The position numbers and the translations under genes are program-made. A stretch of DNA of 23,537 nt from a virus, in IMG/VR virus record IMGVR_UViG_3300035670_001260, positions 1 to 23,537 of that record; one strand, given 5' to 3'. The notes beneath the pieces are model-generated. The model was not told where the DNA came from. It saw nothing but the letters and a program-made list of their open reading frames with translations, and made no database searches. Shown in pieces: positions 631-18,422 of the stretch. Numbering within the stretch: position 1 is the first letter of the stretch; every line of letters starts with the position of its first letter.

Positions 631-659
631 ATTGTAACATAAATCCCCCCCGAAGTCAA
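631..659 (-). promoter_or_regulatory. Sigma70-type promoter for the minus-strand gene
   Basis: On the minus strand, TTGACT (659-654) and TACAAT (636-631) are separated by exactly 17 nt. Each differs from the consensus hexamer by one base. The spacer contains seven consecutive Gs (651-645). Predicted initiation is near 624, giving a leader of about 120 nt that includes the 526-550 hairpin. Confidence 0.7.
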
Positions 660-722: not shown

Positions 723-972
723 TAGCCACGTGCTACACCGACACTATGTGTATTGCGATACGGTCACAATATGGTACACATAGTACACCTACCCTATCCT
801 ACACATAATACACCTACTGTATAGTACACATAGTACACCTGCATTATGTGTACTCTAATACACTCACATTATGTTACACCTAGTACACTCGTATTAAGTG
901 TACCATAGTACACCCGTGTCGCGTGTACCACCATACAGGTGTATTAAGTGTATTATAGTACACCACTGTACT
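723..972. repeat. Array of ten 25-bp tandem units (iteron-like)
   Basis: Ten units start at 723, 748, 773, 798, 823, 848, 873, 898, 923 and 948, with an exact 25-bp period and no indels. The first unit and the second (748-772) are the most degenerate. The best conserved core is TA(G/A)TACAC at unit positions 9-16, followed by C or T and often ending ATTAT or ATTAA. Unit positions 1-8 carry a second half-site, either inverted (GTGTAC, for example 898-913, GTGTACCATAGTACAC, a perfect 6-4-6 dyad) or direct (GTACACATAGTACAC). It has no coding capacity. Such arrays act as replication iterons, packaging sites, centromere-like sites or operator clusters. The sequence alone does not decide between these. 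Confidence 0.85.
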
Positions 973-973
973 A

Positions 974-992
974 GGGGGGTAGGGGGGATAGG
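974..992. other. G-rich tract next to the repeat array
   Basis: Two runs of six Gs separated by TA (974-979 and 982-987), then ATAGG, directly follow the last 25-bp unit. The tract could form a G-quadruplex or act as a strand-asymmetric signal. Nothing more can be said from sequence. Confidence 0.4.
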
Positions 993-1097
993 TCGGTTGC
1001 AATCACACGTATTACTCTCCACGGTTAGTGTGTGGTGAATCAATTGTCACAAAATTGTTAAAGCTCTTTCACATAGGCCCAGCGTCCCTTCGGGCCG

Positions 1098-1172: not shown

Positions 1173-1202
1173 TTGACATTCTACCTCCCCCTATGTTATG
1201 AT
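1173..1202 (+). promoter_or_regulatory. Strong sigma70-type promoter for the terS operon
   Basis: TTGACA (1173-1178) is a perfect -35 hexamer, and TATGAT (1197-1202) differs from the consensus -10 by one base. The spacer is 18 nt. The expected start point, about 7 nt downstream, falls on or next to the ATG at 1209, so the transcript may be leaderless or very nearly so. Confidence 0.7.
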
Positions 1203-1208
1203 AAGGGC

Positions 1209-1739
1209 ATGATGGAGACAACGCCGACATTGTTGGAGAGTTCGCCCAAGCGCAGCACGCCGGGACTCAAGCGGCTGCATGGCAAGCACCGCGAAATTTT
1301 ACGGCTGTACTGCGTCGGCACCCCGTATAATGAGATCGCGGAAATAGTCGGCGTATCGCTTATCTGCGTAAGGCTCACTATTGAGTCGCCTCTCGGCCAA
1401 GCTCGCATCAAGGAGATGCAAGACGCGCTGGATGAGAAGACACGCGACGTGCAGACCGCGATTATAGAAGGCGCCGCACGAGCCCAGGCCTATCTCGAGG
1501 ATATAGTGGTGGGCCGCGAAAAGGTCTCTCCCGCGTTACGAGCTAAGACGTGCGAATCCATGCTCGACAGAGCAGGGTACGTTAAGCCGACCAAAAACTT
1601 GAATATCAACCTAGAAGGTCAGCTAACTGCTGAGGACATCGCCGAGATAAACCGCCGGGCACAAGCCGCCAGTCCTTTCTGCCGGCCTCAGCCCACCTCT
1701 GCTACCATCGAAGCGGTGGTGTCCGATGACCAAAGCTAA
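1209..1739 (+). CDS. terS: Terminase small subunit (putative)
   Basis: The 176-aa product has the layout of many phage small terminases. There is an N-terminal helix-turn-helix (about residues 26-55, with GTPYNEIAEIVGVS as its core). A helical oligomerisation-like middle follows (DEKTRDVQTAIIEGAARAQAYLEDIV). The C-terminal part carries the LDRAGYVKP signature seen in these families. TerS recognises packaging sites and loads DNA onto TerL. The frame is open upstream to a TTG at 1173, but that TTG is the -35 box, so ATG 1209 (or 1212) is preferred. AAGGG at 1203-1207 is very close to it; TTG 1230, with GGAG 12 nt upstream, is an alternative. The gene overlaps the next by 14 bases. TerL lies 3.9 kb downstream, an unusual separation. 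The DNA-binding subunit next to the 25-bp array suggests, by inference, that the array is its target. Confidence 0.72.
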   Translation: MMETTPTLLESSPKRSTPGLKRLHGKHREILRLYCVGTPYNEIAEIVGVSLICVRLTIESPLGQARIKEMQDALDEKTRDVQTAIIEGAARAQAYLEDIVVGREKVSPALRAKTCESMLDRAGYVKPTKNLNINLEGQLTAEDIAEINRRAQAASPFCRPQPTSATIEAVVSDDQS

Positions 1740-3144: not shown

Positions 3145-5077
3145 CCACCCTTACATAAGTCGGAGACTGTACCTACTGCTTCTCACGGTTCTCCTGGCTG
3201 CTCCCCTTCCATTGGTTGCGCAGTCTCCGGCTTATTTCAACAACGTGAAGGTTGGCGGCGGGTACGAAGACCCTCCTGGTGTGGGAACGACCCTTACTAA
3301 TACTGGCGACGGGTACTTCCGTGGCGATCTTATCGTCGATGGTAACATAACCGGCGGTGGCATCAATGTGGACCTTGAAGCTGCCTTCGCCTCTCCATAC
3401 CCGCTCGGTGTAACAGTTCCAAACAGTGTAGCCGCGACAACCTTGTCAGCTTCTTCCCTCTCCCTGGTAACTCCCCTGGCCGACGCTTATGTGGCGAACA
3501 CCCTAACGCTGACTGCAGGGTCTGTCGCGGCTTCCATTATTACTGGCTCCATTACTGATGCGCAGGTTGCCGACGCACTTACCGTTACTGGCTACATGCA
3601 GGACACTGACATTGATACCTTCGCGGAGCTGCAATCCTGGGTAGCTGACAAGACGCTGCTAAACGCTGAAGACGACCTGCCGTGGGCGGATGCTGACGTG
3701 GCCGATATACTGACCATTGGTGCGGGTAGTACGATTGACCCGTCACTGCTTCCTACCACTGACCTTGCCAGCCCTGGGCCGATAGGTGGGACTACTCCGT
3801 CCACGGCAGTGTTTGACCCGACTGTTACCGTAAGCGGAGACGCAGGGACGATCGCGCTTAGTGGCGACCTTCAGGCGATTGTATATGATCGTGCCGCACC
3901 GAATACCGCTAACTACTTTCGCTGGACAACTGGCGAGTATATGATGTTTGAGAATACTGCAGGTACTGATGTATTCTACCTTGGTGACTCCGCTGTCACC
4001 GCTTATCAGGCTTTCTCCGCGCAGTCAACTATAGCCAGTTTTGGTGTAAACGATACTACCTATGCACAACTACGCTTATATGGCAACAGTACAACCACTG
4101 GTAGTCAGGTTTTGTGGTACCAAAGTGCAGACGAAGACGGCACCATCGATTACTTTGTCGCGCAGCCAAACAACACCTATTGGATGCTTGGTCCTAGTAC
4201 CAACACAAATCTGATACAGTTGTATGAAACTGAAATGCTGTGCGAGTATGACTTCACAGCTAACGACGACTTGAATGTCGGCGATGACATTGTATACATT
4301 GGTGCTGGCGAGTTCGACATCAACAATCCAGCCGATACGAATATGGACTTGGTGTCCGCTGGACAGCTGCGCTTTTGGACAGACTCTGATAATGACGATT
4401 CTAATACATCCGACTTTATTTGGTTCAAAGATGCTAGCACTGTAGTGATGACCTTTGATACTAGCGTCCCCGAGCTTAACATAGTTGGCTCTGTGGATAT
4501 CTCTACTGGTAGTACGTATCAAATAAATGGCACGCAGATTGCTGCTACTAACCTGAGCGATGGCGCTAATATAGCGCACATAAACGCCGTGGAGACACTC
4601 AGTGCTGACTGGGTTAATACTGCCAATCCGTGGGCAGATAATGAAGTCTCCAATACTCTCACATCGAGTATCTTCGTTGGTAGTGGTAGTACGACTAACG
4701 CGGTGGACTTGGCGACGGCTGAGGTAGCGGGTCGTCTTAATGCAGACATGCTGATTGCTGACACAGACAGCGCTACACTAGATGCTAGTGGAGAGGTATC
4801 ACTTACCAGCTTCATAGTGAAGATAACTTCTTACTCTGGTACCTCCGATACGCTAGAGACCTTTGATATTGGCACTAGCAATCTTTCTATGCCTTTTGTA
4901 CTACTACGTCCTGCTGTAGGCCATACTATTACAGTAAACGATGGCGGCGCGATAAATAGTTGCTTCGATCTAAATTCAGACTTTACTATGGTCGACACAG
5001 ATGGGGATTGTTTGCTAATCATGCAAGATCCATACGGCGGCGCATGGTACATGGAAGTGATGCGTAGAGACAGTTAG
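3137..5077 (+). CDS. Large tail-fibre-like protein with N-terminal signal peptide
   Basis: The preferred start is TTG 3137, with GGAAG (3126-3130) six bases upstream, giving 646 aa. An upstream ATG at 3089 in the same frame lacks such a site. Residues 1-28 look like an export signal: ISRRLYLLLL, a long hydrophobic core, then PLVA|QSP. The twin arginine in S-R-R-L-Y-L is Tat-like, but the core is hydrophobic enough for Sec. The mature part is Thr/Ser/Gly/Asp-rich beta-repeat sequence. It includes GDLIVDGNITGGG and SPGPIGGTTPSTAVF, motifs common in phage tail fibres. A PWADxxVxxxLT motif occurs twice (residues 182 and 498). It may be a receptor-contacting fibre. A signal peptide on such a protein is odd; export to the surface of the infected cell is an alternative. 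Confidence 0.72.
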   Translation: MPNHPYISRRLYLLLLTVLLAAPLPLVAQSPAYFNNVKVGGGYEDPPGVGTTLTNTGDGYFRGDLIVDGNITGGGINVDLEAAFASPYPLGVTVPNSVAATTLSASSLSLVTPLADAYVANTLTLTAGSVAASIITGSITDAQVADALTVTGYMQDTDIDTFAELQSWVADKTLLNAEDDLPWADADVADILTIGAGSTIDPSLLPTTDLASPGPIGGTTPSTAVFDPTVTVSGDAGTIALSGDLQAIVYDRAAPNTANYFRWTTGEYMMFENTAGTDVFYLGDSAVTAYQAFSAQSTIASFGVNDTTYAQLRLYGNSTTTGSQVLWYQSADEDGTIDYFVAQPNNTYWMLGPSTNTNLIQLYETEMLCEYDFTANDDLNVGDDIVYIGAGEFDINNPADTNMDLVSAGQLRFWTDSDNDDSNTSDFIWFKDASTVVMTFDTSVPELNIVGSVDISTGSTYQINGTQIAATNLSDGANIAHINAVETLSADWVNTANPWADNEVSNTLTSSIFVGSGSTTNAVDLATAEVAGRLNADMLIADTDSATLDASGEVSLTSFIVKITSYSGTSDTLETFDIGTSNLSMPFVLLRPAVGHTITVNDGGAINSCFDLNSDFTMVDTDGDCLLIMQDPYGGAWYMEVMRRDS

Positions 5078-5087
5078 GAACACCACC

Positions 5088-5651
5088 ATGCCACTCAAAC
5101 ATAGCCACTTCTTCGTTAGTTGCCTCTTGGCTTGCTCCGTCTTAGTCGCCCAAGAGCTGTACACCGTCGACGGTATCGCGCTCGACAGCTCCGAGTTAGA
5201 GCGCCTTACCATGCAGCAGAAGCTTAAGGCGGAGCAGGCCGAACAAACACAGCGCTTTGTGGCTCAGATGCAGGGGTGGATAAAGGAAACCGCGCCGGCG
5301 GTTATCGCTAACAGCACTCTAAGCGAAGGTCAAAAACAGCAGCTCGCAGCTCGGATGCAAGTCATGCAAGCAGACCTGCAGTTGCTAGGCCAGATGACAT
5401 TGGAGCAACTACAAGGCGTGGAAATCTCCGCTCGCGTTGTTAAAATGCAGTCACTCGACCATAATGTCGAAGCGCTGCAAGCGCAGATAGACAGAGCGAA
5501 TGAGCGTCTTGGGATGGCTGAAGAGGCTGATAAACAGAAGGTGGAAGAAGAGATTGCCACATTACAGACCCAACTGACCGACGCTTCCACCAGTGCCGAG
5601 AATTTCCGTACTACCCACAAGCTGCCGAAGAAAGCGGACAAGCCCGAATGA
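5088..5651 (+). CDS. Exported coiled-coil protein (spanin-like or structural)
   Basis: The 187-aa product begins with a short basic segment and hydrophobic core (FFVSCLLACSVLVA). It could be cut after A at VA|QEL, or lipidated at C16 (LLAC is a weak lipobox). The rest (about 40-185) is almost entirely helical, Q/E/A-rich coiled coil, including TLEQLQGVEISARVVKMQSL and LQAQIDRANERLGMAEEADK, with a Lys-rich end. A membrane anchor plus a periplasmic coiled coil is the plan of inner-membrane spanins, but no partner gene is embedded here. It lies 10 bases after the fibre gene and overlaps terL by four bases (ATGA). The cleavage sequence LVAQ is shared with the previous gene. Function is unproven. 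Confidence 0.65.
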   Translation: MPLKHSHFFVSCLLACSVLVAQELYTVDGIALDSSELERLTMQQKLKAEQAEQTQRFVAQMQGWIKETAPAVIANSTLSEGQKQQLAARMQVMQADLQLLGQMTLEQLQGVEISARVVKMQSLDHNVEALQAQIDRANERLGMAEEADKQKVEEEIATLQTQLTDASTSAENFRTTHKLPKKADKPE

Positions 5652-7195
5652 AACTCACTGATGCAGAACTAAGTATACACGAAAAATGCTCCATCTCTAC
5701 GGAAGCATGTGCGAATGTATACTTCCATGACCTCTTCCCTCTGCCATTCTCAGATGGTCATAGAGAAGCGATGGCTGCATTGGACAATCCAGAGATACGG
5801 CACCTTGCTATAGTCGCTACTCGTGGCTGGGGTAAGACCAGCATAGTGCAGCGGGCGTATGTAGCCCGACACGTACTATACCAGAAGAGCCGGTTTGTAG
5901 TTCCAGTGAGTTGTACCAGTTCGCAAAGCGAACAGCAGAGCGAAAGTCTGAAGCGAGAGTTTGAGTGCAACCCTCTGATGAAACAACTCGGCTTCAAGAA
6001 CTTGGTGAGCAACAATTGGGCTAAGGACCGGTGGATCTCCAATGGCACCTTAGTTCTGCCTCGAGGCTATGGACAACAAATCCGCGGTCAGTTGTATGGG
6101 AGCGACCGGCCGGACCTAATTATAGTGGACGACCTGGAAGACAGTGAGGGTGTACTGTCTGATGAGCAGCGCGCGAAGAAGAAAGAATGGTTCTTCGGTG
6201 ACGTGCTTGGAGCAGTAGACGCGAGCAAGTACCACAAGATAGTGTACATCGGTAACATGCTACACGAAGACTGCCTTCTTGCTAACCTGCTGGAAAATCC
6301 AGATTGGGTTAGCTTCCGCTATCCGATTGCTGATGATGATATGCACTCGCTATGGCCGGAGAAGTACAGCGATGAGTACATCGCCAAGTTGTACCGCTTC
6401 TATAAGAACGAGCACTTGCTCGACGTCTTCTATCGTGAATACATGTGCCAAAGCATGGCACGAGAAGGTGCACCCTTTGACTCAAAGTGCTTCCAATACT
6501 ACTCTCCCGAAGAGCTTAAGAAGCTGTTCGTGGAGTTCGTCGTACTCGTCGATCCTGCTAAATCGACTGGCTCTAGTGCATGTGACACGGCAGTAGTTGG
6601 AGTGGGCATAGATGCGCTGAATAACCGCTTCTACGTTCATGATATTGACTATGGCCGGTGGCACCCGAATGAGATCGTTGATAATGCTATGGCGATGTGC
6701 CAGCGCCTTGGAGCTCGTGTGCTGGGCGTGGAAGAGGCTGGTAGTGGAGAGTTTATCTCTTGGCCGATTAAGAACGAACTGAGGCGTAGGGCTGCTAATG
6801 TAGAATACGTCAAACTCACGCCACGTAAGGGCCCGTCACAGTACGTGCCGAATGGCTCCTCGCAGCAAGGTAAAGACTCTCGTATTGGGCACGCACTTGT
6901 AGGATTGTACCGTAATGGACTCGTTTATCATAACCGAGAACACCGTCATGTTGACCAGCTCGAACGTCAGTTGCTCGAATTCCCTCGAGGTAAACGCAAG
7001 GATATCATCGACGCTCTCTCTTACGTTGCCCAGCTCATGGAGACAGGAGAGCGGTACTTTGCTTGTCGCCGTTATGTAGATGACGATAAAGATACTGAGT
7101 ATGGTCCTGGTATGTTAGACGCGAAGTATGAGGACGCACGCCTCAAGGAACTGTGTGCACCAGATAGCACTCGCCCCGAGCCTTGGCAAGTGTAG
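5648..7195 (+). CDS. terL: Terminase large subunit
   Basis: This is the ATP-driven DNA packaging motor and headful or site nuclease, docking on the portal. The 515-aa protein has an N-terminal ATPase with Walker A ATRGWGKTS (residues 57-65) and Walker B LIIVDDLED (157-165, with the catalytic acidic pair following). The C-terminal RNase H-like nuclease has VLVDPA (D302), D313 in ACDTAVVGVG, the VEEAGSG segment (361-367) and the late acidic residues in KDIIDALSYV (451-460). Length and domain order are normal for TerL. It overlaps the previous gene by four bases. Its stop codon touches the second copy of the shared intergenic motif, before the portal gene. Separation from terS by four other genes is unusual. 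Confidence 0.97.
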   Translation: MKLTDAELSIHEKCSISTEACANVYFHDLFPLPFSDGHREAMAALDNPEIRHLAIVATRGWGKTSIVQRAYVARHVLYQKSRFVVPVSCTSSQSEQQSESLKREFECNPLMKQLGFKNLVSNNWAKDRWISNGTLVLPRGYGQQIRGQLYGSDRPDLIIVDDLEDSEGVLSDEQRAKKKEWFFGDVLGAVDASKYHKIVYIGNMLHEDCLLANLLENPDWVSFRYPIADDDMHSLWPEKYSDEYIAKLYRFYKNEHLLDVFYREYMCQSMAREGAPFDSKCFQYYSPEELKKLFVEFVVLVDPAKSTGSSACDTAVVGVGIDALNNRFYVHDIDYGRWHPNEIVDNAMAMCQRLGARVLGVEEAGSGEFISWPIKNELRRRAANVEYVKLTPRKGPSQYVPNGSSQQGKDSRIGHALVGLYRNGLVYHNREHRHVDQLERQLLEFPRGKRKDIIDALSYVAQLMETGERYFACRRYVDDDKDTEYGPGMLDAKYEDARLKELCAPDSTRPEPWQV

Positions 7196-7216: not shown

Positions 7217-9160
7217 ATGCCTATTATACAAAATCCACTGAACGCCCCGAATGAGATTGAGGTTGGACGAACTTATTCGTACCAATACCCACTCGGCCTC
7301 AATCTGCGTCCGGATTCCGAGCTGCACGCTGATCTTGTCGCTAGGATCACCTGCATGGCTCGAGATGCGCGCCAACAGATTGCGAACCGCTACACAAGAT
7401 GGCAGAAGATAGACAAGACCCTCACTGCTTATATCAGTGAGGATAGTCTATTTAACCAATCACTTGGCAAGAACGACGAGCTGCAGATTGTGGTGCCGAT
7501 GTCGTATGCCACATTGGACACCATCCTCTCTCACTGGATTACGTCATTCACAAACGGCCCACTTTTCCAGTATCGTGGCTTTGGTCCTGAGGACAAGGTC
7601 GCTGCCATGCTGCTGGAGCTGGCTATTGACTCCCAAGTAAGGCGCAATAAGATGCTCCTTAGCTTGCACACCCAATGGCGTGACTCCCTTGCGTATGGCC
7701 TTGGCATCGTGCATCCCAGATGGGAACTCCAATACGGTCGTCGGATAGTGAAGCAAGAGACGAACATCTTCTCTGAGATCCTCAATACGGTGCTAGGCGT
7801 GCGTAACCAGCGAGCCGTCACTCCTCGGCAACCCGTTTCCGAAGGTAACGTACTGGATGTATGGGACCCCTACAATTACTTGCCTGATCCAAATGTGGAC
7901 CCGAGTAATGTACAAGCAGGACAGTTCGTAGGCCACATCCGTCCGACTAACTACTACGCGCTATTGTCCCTAGAGCAGGACGACCCCGAGACCTACTTCA
8001 ATGTGCGCTATTTGGAGAATCGCGATTTTGCTATCTCCGAGAAGGAAACGAGCGGGTGGACCTCTACTGTACGCACTACGAACGACACTAAACTTACGTA
8101 CGGCAAACAGGGTGACGTACTAACCTTCTACTGCACGATCATCCCCAAAGAGTGGAAGGTTGGTAAGAGCACCTATCCGGAGAAATGGGTATTTGAAATC
8201 GCTGGCGACGCAGTAATTATACGCGCCAATCCGCTGAAGTTCGTGCACGACATGTATCCTGTGGGCGTGGCCGCTCCGACGTATGATGGTCACACGCTCG
8301 CACCTATTAGTGCCCTCGAGATGATCTACCCCATGCAGGAAATCATCGACTGGCTGTATAAGTCGCATATTCATAACGTCCGCAAGGCGTTAAATAATAT
8401 GCTGATTGTCGACCCGTCGCTGGTCCGGTACGATGACGTAGCGAATCCTGAGCCTGGTAAAATCATCCGGATACGTGAGCACGTATGGGGGCGGGGTGTA
8501 AAAGACGCCGTAGAGCAGCTCTCAATTGCCGATGTGACGCACTCCCATCTGCAGGATATTGGTAGTGCCATCGATGTGCTGCAACGCGTAAGTGGCGCGG
8601 TGGATTCGTTGCAAGGAATCGTACGAACTGGAGGAGAACGTCGCAGTGCAACAGAAATGCGTGACACACGACTTAGCGCCCTTAGCCGTCTCCAAAAAGG
8701 GGCCTTTTTGGCAAGCTTGCAAAGTATGCAAGACGTGGGTAGAATGCTCGCCATGCACACCCAGCAATTCATGGAACTGGGTATCTACCTGGACTTGGTG
8801 GGACAACACAAGCAAGAGCTTGAGCAAATCTACCAGTCGGACAACATAAAGGCCGACCCACTTGACTTCATCTGCGACTTTGATATTATTGTGGCGGATG
8901 GTATGTCTGAGGGTGAAGAATACTTAAATGAGAGCATGCAAATGTTCCAAGTCATTCAGAGTAATCCACAAACGCTGCAGACCTTTGACATGGTGCGAAT
9001 GTCCTTAGATTTGATGAAGAAAAGTGGGTACAAAAATCCGACTAACTTCTTGTTGCCCAACTTCCAAGTACTCCCCGACGAGCAAGCAATGAACATGGCG
9101 GCGGATGGTAACATGGTACCGGCGGACTCACTGATGCCTGCTGAGGTGGTCAATGCCTGA
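7217..9160 (+). CDS. Portal protein
   Basis: A 647-aa protein directly after terL with typical portal features. It has an N-terminal helical segment, then a wing and stem region with VSEGNVLDVWDPYNYLPDP, a hallmark pattern of portal families. Later come LEMIYPMQEIIDWLYKSHIH, GGERRSATEMRDTRLSALSR and a long C-terminal helical region. Twelve copies would form the DNA channel, bind TerL and seed capsid assembly. The length suits the larger portals of short-tailed and related phages. The start at ATG 7217 has no visible SD and follows copy 2 of the shared motif, so its translation may be coupled to terL or depend on the motif. It overlaps the next gene by 8 bases. Confidence 0.9.
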   Translation: MPIIQNPLNAPNEIEVGRTYSYQYPLGLNLRPDSELHADLVARITCMARDARQQIANRYTRWQKIDKTLTAYISEDSLFNQSLGKNDELQIVVPMSYATLDTILSHWITSFTNGPLFQYRGFGPEDKVAAMLLELAIDSQVRRNKMLLSLHTQWRDSLAYGLGIVHPRWELQYGRRIVKQETNIFSEILNTVLGVRNQRAVTPRQPVSEGNVLDVWDPYNYLPDPNVDPSNVQAGQFVGHIRPTNYYALLSLEQDDPETYFNVRYLENRDFAISEKETSGWTSTVRTTNDTKLTYGKQGDVLTFYCTIIPKEWKVGKSTYPEKWVFEIAGDAVIIRANPLKFVHDMYPVGVAAPTYDGHTLAPISALEMIYPMQEIIDWLYKSHIHNVRKALNNMLIVDPSLVRYDDVANPEPGKIIRIREHVWGRGVKDAVEQLSIADVTHSHLQDIGSAIDVLQRVSGAVDSLQGIVRTGGERRSATEMRDTRLSALSRLQKGAFLASLQSMQDVGRMLAMHTQQFMELGIYLDLVGQHKQELEQIYQSDNIKADPLDFICDFDIIVADGMSEGEEYLNESMQMFQVIQSNPQTLQTFDMVRMSLDLMKKSGYKNPTNFLLPNFQVLPDEQAMNMAADGNMVPADSLMPAEVVNA

Positions 9161-17391: not shown

Positions 17392-18422
17392 TGAACTTCA
17401 TTAAACAAAGCACCGCAGTCATCCTGAAGCTGGGTCCGTTCGTCGATGATACGGACTTCAAGACAGCAGAGACTGGATTGACGATTGCGCAAGGCGATAT
17501 ACAAATAAGCAAGAATGGCGGTGCGTTTGCGCAGACAAGTGCGGCGTCGCCTACTACGACGCACGATGCGGATGGATGGTATCCAATTCCACTAACGACG
17601 ACGGACACTGGAACGCTTGGACACATCATGGTCCAGGTGTTGGTGAGTGGCGCATTGCCGGTGTGGTGGGAAGGGCTAGTGCTTCCAGCAAACGTGTACG
17701 ACGCGCTCGTAGCGGGCAGCGACTACTTGCAGGTAGACGCTGTGCAGGTAGAAGGCGGAGATGCTACGGACGCGCTCGGCACGGCACAGACGGGCGACAC
17801 GTATGCGAGACTGGGAGCGCCAGCTGGAGCCAGTGTGAGTGCGGATGTTGCCGCGGTGAAGGCACAGACAGCTGCAATTGAGACAGATACGCAAGACATT
17901 CAGACGAAGCTTGGCGCGCCAGCTGGGGCATCGGTATCTGCAGATGTGGCCGCGGTAAAGGCACAAACTGCTGCAATAGAGACCGATACGCAAGATATCC
18001 AGATAAAGATTGGCACGCCGTCTGTCAGTCTCGCAGCCGACATTGCTGGTGTGTCAGCCCCAACTGAGACTGAGGTAGCAGCAGAAGTTGACTCAGTGCT
18101 GACCGCCGCCCACGGGTCCGGTGCATGGACTAGCGGTGTGGCAGGTAGCGGTGATACTGAGGTCAACAGCAGCTCTCTCGACGATGAGAGCGATACGATG
18201 GTATTCCAAACGAGCGGTGGCGCTGGCATCGGCGGGGCGACAGTGCGGGCGTATGTGAAGACCGAGTACGACGCTGGCACCTACACGGTGAGAGCTACCG
18301 CCACTACCGAGGATGACGGCACCTGGGGCCCGATATACCTGAACGATGGCGTTCAGTACACTATCACCTTCTTCAAGCCCGGCTACGCAGTAGCCACTAC
18401 AACGATAACTGTGGGAGCGTAA
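17391..18422 (+). CDS. Tail protein with tandem coil repeats
   Basis: ATG 17391 overlaps the previous stop, with GGAGGG at 17378-17383; the frame is open upstream but the N-terminal domain begins here. 343 aa. An N-terminal beta domain (KQSTAVILKLGPFVDDTDFK and LPVWWEGLVLPANVYDALV), of a kind common in phage tail proteins, covers about 1-125. Two near-identical 33-residue repeats (141-173 and 174-206) and a partial third follow, with core SADVAAVKAQTAAIETDTQD. A C-terminal Ig or transthyretin-like domain (about 270-343: GIGGATVRAYVKTEYDAGTY, then YTITFFKPGYAVATTTI) ends it. The repeats suggest a trimeric coiled-coil shaft. Likely a fibre or baseplate component. Confidence 0.72.
   Translation: MNFIKQSTAVILKLGPFVDDTDFKTAETGLTIAQGDIQISKNGGAFAQTSAASPTTTHDADGWYPIPLTTTDTGTLGHIMVQVLVSGALPVWWEGLVLPANVYDALVAGSDYLQVDAVQVEGGDATDALGTAQTGDTYARLGAPAGASVSADVAAVKAQTAAIETDTQDIQTKLGAPAGASVSADVAAVKAQTAAIETDTQDIQIKIGTPSVSLAADIAGVSAPTETEVAAEVDSVLTAAHGSGAWTSGVAGSGDTEVNSSSLDDESDTMVFQTSGGAGIGGATVRAYVKTEYDAGTYTVRATATTEDDGTWGPIYLNDGVQYTITFFKPGYAVATTTITVGA
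17811..18053 (+). repeat. 99-bp in-frame tandem repeats within the tail protein gene
   Basis: Units begin at 17811, 17910 and 18009 (the third diverged and partial). The first two encode the same 33 residues except the penultimate (Thr or Ile), but differ at many third codon positions. The repeat is therefore old and kept by selection on the protein. Confidence 0.85.

Follow-up and report, generated by a model that had tools for sequence, protein, structure and literature searches.

A block of 25-bp repeats lies beside the small terminase gene (terS) of an uncultured phage, in a linear fragment of 23,537 bases from one IMG/VR virus record that is here called the window. The locus raises the question of what kind of protein reads such repeats, and for which process. 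A preliminary description of the sequence had offered four candidates for the array, namely a packaging site for the adjacent TerS, replication iterons, a ParB/ParR-type centromere and an operator array; the best supported of these is the packaging site, for reasons that lie less in the neighboring gene than in a conserved element at the junction that the array occupies.

A phase-locked array between divergent arms

The array is real and non-random. Its full units, with the consensus TACACCnrCATTATGTGTAccATAG, begin at 734, 759 and so on to 934, and they keep the 25-bp register without any indel. Identity at a lag of 25 is 0.58, against 0.26 ± 0.03 in dinucleotide-preserving shuffles (the best of 2000 reached 0.37), and it amounts to 0.62 at lag 50 and 0.57 at lag 100, bearing out the constrained spacing that had been proposed. 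The ten units previously assigned to 723-972, correct in their exact period, are better described as nine full units and a half that span 734 to about 963; the earlier interval opens with 10 bases that do not fit the repeat. Tandem Repeats Finder reports the array as overlapping rows, and in a scan for direct 8-mer repeats the 258 bp before the G-tract described below outscore all other segments of the record. No open reading frame runs through the array, which is non-coding.

Each unit carries an outer half-site, TACAC in 8 of 10 cases, with two variants (TACGG at 759 and TACAG at 934) where the preliminary description had counted one. Every full unit (9/9) also holds a single inner half-site at nearly the same place, either inverted or direct as first described: five units (734, 834, 884, 909 and 934) have GTGTA at unit position 15, and the other four (759, 784, 809 and 859) have TACAC at unit position 17. 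A GTGTA and the TACAC that follows it form a dyad with a center spacing of 11 bp, about one helical turn, and further GTGTA half-sites occur at 748, 898, 923 and 948. The direct TACAC-N4-TACAC pairs are spaced by 9 bp, the others starting at 800, 825 and 875 (Table 1).

The array sits in the non-coding stretch between a minus-strand gene and terS and fills the junction at which the early and late arms diverge. The sigma-70-like promoters on its two sides both face outward, and the array overlaps neither. The terS gene is adjacent, as had been stated, at a distance from position 972 to its ATG of 237 bp rather than 236. Inside the spacer of the divergent promoter lies another G-tract, this one on the minus strand (TTCGGGGGGGATTTATG, about 644-650), and G-tracts of opposite orientation (644-650, minus; 972-987, plus) flank the array. 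In many relatives, the start codons of terS or late genes are preceded by a recurrent GTTCAAAATTTGAACGGAGG-like palindrome (e.g. L082, 424-446; window, 1104-1126). Elsewhere in the window, a run of 12 C at 30-41, near the record's left end, is a possible cause of the assembly break, and a 99-bp repeat (17840-18019; 1.8 copies, 83% matches) lies within a 360-aa ORF. Searches of Rfam and of INPHARED DNA gave no match, and a tRNA search found none.

The window encodes SU10-like portal, major capsid and adaptor proteins. Its terS gene shows the features expected of a small terminase gene, being homologous to the annotated terS of Desulfofustis phage LS06-2018-MD01 (MD01), the one complete named relative recovered by protein search, encoding an N-terminal helix-turn-helix (HTH) domain and lying upstream of terL. 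In an AlphaFold2 model of TerS (mean pLDDT 82), the HTH spans residues about 18-59 and a long helix residues 61-101; a Foldseek search with this model gave no significant PDB match, the TerS-like structure 2ao9 matching weakly. As a scan of IMG/VR with the single TerS sequence found no relatives, the clade was collected with TerL profiles, which yielded about 90 uncultured SU10-like phages. TerS homologues were found as 33 ORFs in a first set (the window's own counted) and 25 in a second, and they are highly divergent, with 20-34% identity to the TerS of the window. The early arms of complete relatives encode a PolA with a UDG domain, a primase, a ligase and a ParB_N-methyltransferase fusion. 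The contigs of three clade members (L220, L221 and L218) were binned with genomes of Nanohaloarchaea, WOR-3 and Clostridia, and are probably phage contigs that ended up in those bins.

Table 1. Coordinates of the array, its neighbors and related features (window positions unless another record is named)
Feature	Position	Strand	Basis or remark
Nearest gene of the early (opposite) arm, 129 aa	116..505	-	no family match above chance
Divergent sigma-70-like promoter, TTGACT-17-TACAAT	631..659	-	sequence
25-bp repeat array	734..963		nine full units (734-958), then the opening half of a tenth (959-963)
Direct half-site pair TACAC-N4-TACAC, example	775..788		9 bp apart
Inverted half-site pair GTGTA-N6-TACAC, example	848..863		centers 11 bp apart; inverted-repeat search
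G-tract TAGGGGGGTAGGGGGG	972..987	+	conserved clade motif, consensus about CGAWGGGGGRA; directly after array
Predicted packaging cut	1003..1035		inferred from tract-to-end distance in mapped cos phages
AT palindrome-like element AATTGTCACAAAATT	1042..1056		similar palindrome about 30-100 nt after G-tract in relatives
terS sigma-70-like promoter, TTGACA-18-TATGAT	1173..1202	+	sequence
terS	1209..1739	+	HTH at the N-terminus, plus a long helix; homologue of the terS annotated in MD01
terL (phrog_38)	5648..7195	+	basis for collecting the clade
ParB_N-N6/N4 DNA methyltransferase fusion, early arm	L226:15490-16899; L084:10342-11634	-; +

A conserved G-tract and recurrent arrays in relatives

The G-tract that borders the array is a conserved motif of the clade. 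In a de novo search of 26 upstream regions it reached a log-likelihood of 87.9, against 46.7-66.8 in 8 shuffled sets, and a matrix built from the first set found it at p<=0.05 in 7 of 16 held-out non-redundant relatives (0.8 expected), the terS-sense strand giving the better match in 13 of the 16. Four relatives without a tract just before terS carry one farther upstream, in intergenic DNA, at distances from terS of 5.6 kb (G003/L086), 2.2 kb (L098), 1.3 kb (L189) and 1.0 kb (L176). That the tract remains at the junction where terS has moved indicates that it marks the divergent-arm junction and not terS; by a crude ORF map it lies between divergent genes in 25 of 32 relatives. In 7 of 35 relatives (0.09 expected) the hexamer CGCGCG occurs no more than 60 nt downstream of the tract, and this is the more independent of the tests because the tract positions in this set were picked by eye with the aid of the motif. 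Further downstream, an AT palindrome is found in most relatives (log-likelihood 46.5 vs 25.5-31.2 in shuffled sets). In L093 a small HNH_3-type gene (about 4403-4753; PF13392 match, record G009) lies between the G-tract and terS. For a clade known almost only from metagenomes, a conserved junction tract offers a way to predict genome ends.

Arrays, too, recur at this place. Measured against its own locus, the 258 bp before the G-tract reaches at least the 98th percentile for direct repeats in 10 of 33 relatives, the window included (0.7 expected); behind the tract the same level is reached in 3 of 32. The arrays immediately upstream of the tract differ in unit and in period, which is 25 bp in the window, 17 bp in L112 and in L084, 14 bp in L110, 42 bp in L095 and 40/24 bp in L191. 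The array of L112 has the same mixed-orientation design as that of the window, with TTCCTAGTTTAGAATCA and the reverse-orientation TTCCAAACTAGGAATCA succeeding each other at an exact 17-bp phase, yet the 17-bp units are unrelated. The array is kept in kind rather than in sequence. Its presence is scattered on the TerL tree, with 8 changes for 9 rows and clustering not beyond that of shuffles, although the sister of the window (L095, support 100/99) also carries one.

About two thirds of the relatives with a homologous TerS and a G-tract have no detectable array, and the array is therefore not indispensable. Relatives with the same terS and no array had been named in advance among the observations that would refute the proposal, and this is borne out in part. 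As to the suggested check of whether the array's location in related phages follows terS, arrays recur next to a junction G-tract that does not itself follow terS. In more distant relatives a different, 257-aa protein occupies the place of TerS and is preceded by short palindromic or tandem arrays, including 16-bp ACATATAGCTATATG arrays (L062 at 8299-8375, L044, L045, L025 and L038), 19-bp arrays (L026 and L018) and 35-bp TTTTCAACT arrays (L054, L056, L057 and L059). These marine-phage arrays were set aside because the TerS differs and no G-tract was seen. Literature searches found no description of arrays like those before the G-tract, or of the tract itself.

Candidate roles of the array

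The clade's tract has a parallel in some well-studied phages. In a small, selected sample of records opened at cos, a tract of at least 4 G lies 21-49 nt before the end in HK97, D3, SfV, phiC31, TM4 and A2, and a C-tract (at least 4) lies 21-49 nt from the end in PSA and sk1, while lambda has no tract; the background for a tract of at least 5 in 70 nt is 0.066. These eight phages have 3' overhangs and lambda a 5' overhang, and their records begin at cos. For HK97 the overhang is 10 nt, 3' (PMC11331095). A G- or C-tract that precedes the cut by 20-50 nt is a likeness noted here rather than an established definition of cos: the eight cos phages show it, and the clade conserves the tract, ahead of a putative cut. 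In the light of this parallel the junction is best read as a cos-like site, with the cut predicted in Table 1. The position of the array at the arm junction, upstream of the late and packaging genes, is also that expected of an HK97-type 3'-overhang cos. An HNH endonuclease gene, as found beside HK97-type sites, was sought in 14 records, with matches to PF01844 in none and to PF13392 in two, a scarcity that counts against the likeness.

The reading we favor, tentatively and at somewhat less than an even chance, is that a cos-like packaging site lies where the early and late arms meet, and that the array is the part of it on which protein docks, bound by one oligomeric HTH protein. It is the neighboring G-tract/CGCGCG element that argues for packaging, and not, as first suggested, nearness to terS. 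An apparent clustering of contig starts upstream of terS was dropped as evidence: complete contigs such as G011, G033 and MD01 carry end overlaps of 114 or 127 bases, as circular assemblies do, and contig ends were accordingly left unused. The complete relatives assemble as circles, which is compatible with cos, pac or circular replication forms alike. The pink-berry paper holds no packaging data on MD01, and the high-coverage regions for which it gives coordinates are those of MD02 and MD04.

In such a site, multiple HTH domains of one oligomeric protein, with TerS as the first candidate, would bind the 25-bp units, and the bound complex would set the terminase to cut 20-50 nt beyond the G-tract. 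Since the half-sites point both ways yet keep a fixed phase, a ring or other polymer that carries its HTH domains on flexible tethers would be a likelier ligand than a rigid two-fold dimer; a rigid dimeric repressor is not expected to accept both the 11-bp inverted and the 9-bp direct pairs, whereas domains tethered in this way could. In small terminases, which assemble into rings, the N-terminal DNA-binding segments are arrayed on the outside (PMC7672466, PMC9611059, PMC11331095). The TerS of HK97 threads DNA, and it binds at +15 to +29, to the terS side of its cut (PMC11331095); the array is placed across the G-tract from there, so that TerS is a plausible, putative ligand.

A bolder extension, which we regard as unlikely, would see at the cos-like junction of this large clade a fast-evolving family of packaging arrays. 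Several lineages would each have one of their own, with periods of 14 to 42 bp and mostly unrelated units, and the half-sites, facing either way, would fit the HTH crown of a TerS ring, the DNA being wrapped or docked on several subunits at once. If this were true, the arrays would represent a mode of packaging recognition unlike the threading of HK97. How TerS recognizes DNA is debated, with wrapping round the ring, threading through it and lateral docking all proposed (PMC11331095, PMC9611059). A long, phase-locked array of mixed orientation beside a cos-like element would be a natural substrate for a direct test of the wrapping or docking model.

Iterons are typically regular repeats at fixed spacing, usually uniform direct ones, and in the constancy of its spacing the array is iteron-typical. 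It might offer sites to a phage initiator at the arm junction and serve bidirectional replication, in which the G-tract would perhaps help to open the strands or form an R-loop. PolA, primase and ligase are encoded by the clade itself, and the skew check proposed with this candidate did, in 4 of 5 genomes (G011, G010, G033 and MD01; not G031), place a cumulative GC-skew minimum at about 0.2-3 kb from the G-tract. However, the coding direction flips at that minimum, and the signal, confounded by the flip, fits a genome end as it fits an origin. The half-sites run in both orientations (5 inverted, 4 direct) and not as uniform direct repeats, most relatives lack the array, and the G-tract/CGCGCG element resembles cos regions. 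No initiator gene was recognized beside the array, most of the early arm of this phage lying outside the record. On balance an origin is improbable.

Lower still we place the possibility that the array belongs to the packaging site but is read by an accessory or host DNA-bending protein, or that it forms the termination (cosQ-like) side instead of a TerS site. The pac sites of P1 and SPP1, with terminase-recognized repeats on both sides of the cut, weigh against this, and no accessory protein was identified. In its favor, the TerS of HK97 binds the opposite side of the cut (PMC11331095), the array being on the far side of the G-tract, and lambda, with its separate termination element cosQ, offers a precedent (PMC6092414).

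An operator array, on which a phage regulator would polymerize to control the divergent early and late promoters, is doubtful to a similar degree. The array does lie between two sigma-70-like promoters of opposite arms, and its GTGTA-N6-TACAC pairs resemble dimer operators, but it overlaps neither promoter, standing about 75 bp from the -35 element at 659 and about 200 bp from the promoter at 1173; moreover, 4 of 9 units hold direct and not inverted pairs, and the arrays of relatives border the G-tract. A centromere-like site for a ParB/ParR-type partition protein is very improbable, since the sole ParB-like protein of two complete relatives, a ParB_N domain fused to an N6/N4 DNA methyltransferase, is not encoded beside the array, and neither ParA nor ParM was found among the early-arm proteins scanned.

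Likeness to known replication and packaging sites

With iteron origins the array shares short repeats, constant spacing and a position at a divergent junction; it differs in its mixed orientations, in the absence of a recognized adjacent initiator and in not being conserved in most relatives. The pac sites of P1 and SPP1, in which repeated terminase-recognized boxes on both sides of the cut are few and irregularly spaced, resemble it in having multiple copies of a short recognition-type element near the terminase genes. The nine units of the array, in contrast, keep an exact 25-bp spacing.

Among cos sites, the cosB of lambda contains three R sites for TerS (PMC6092414), and the likeness lies in multiple putative HTH-recognized sites within a cos-like region; cosB, however, with only its three sites, is located between the cut and terS, and lambda lacks a G-tract near its end. 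HK97-type cos sites (HK97, D3, SfV, phiC31 and TM4) have no known 25-bp array and are adjoined, in the records examined, by an HNH endonuclease gene that is mostly absent in this clade, and the TerS of HK97 binds the other side of a cut that in this clade is a predicted one. They nevertheless share with the present junction a terS-sense G-tract, a GC-rich element after the tract and terS downstream, and the TerS modeled here, with its N-terminal HTH and long helix, looks like the ring-forming small terminases (PMC7672466, PMC9611059).
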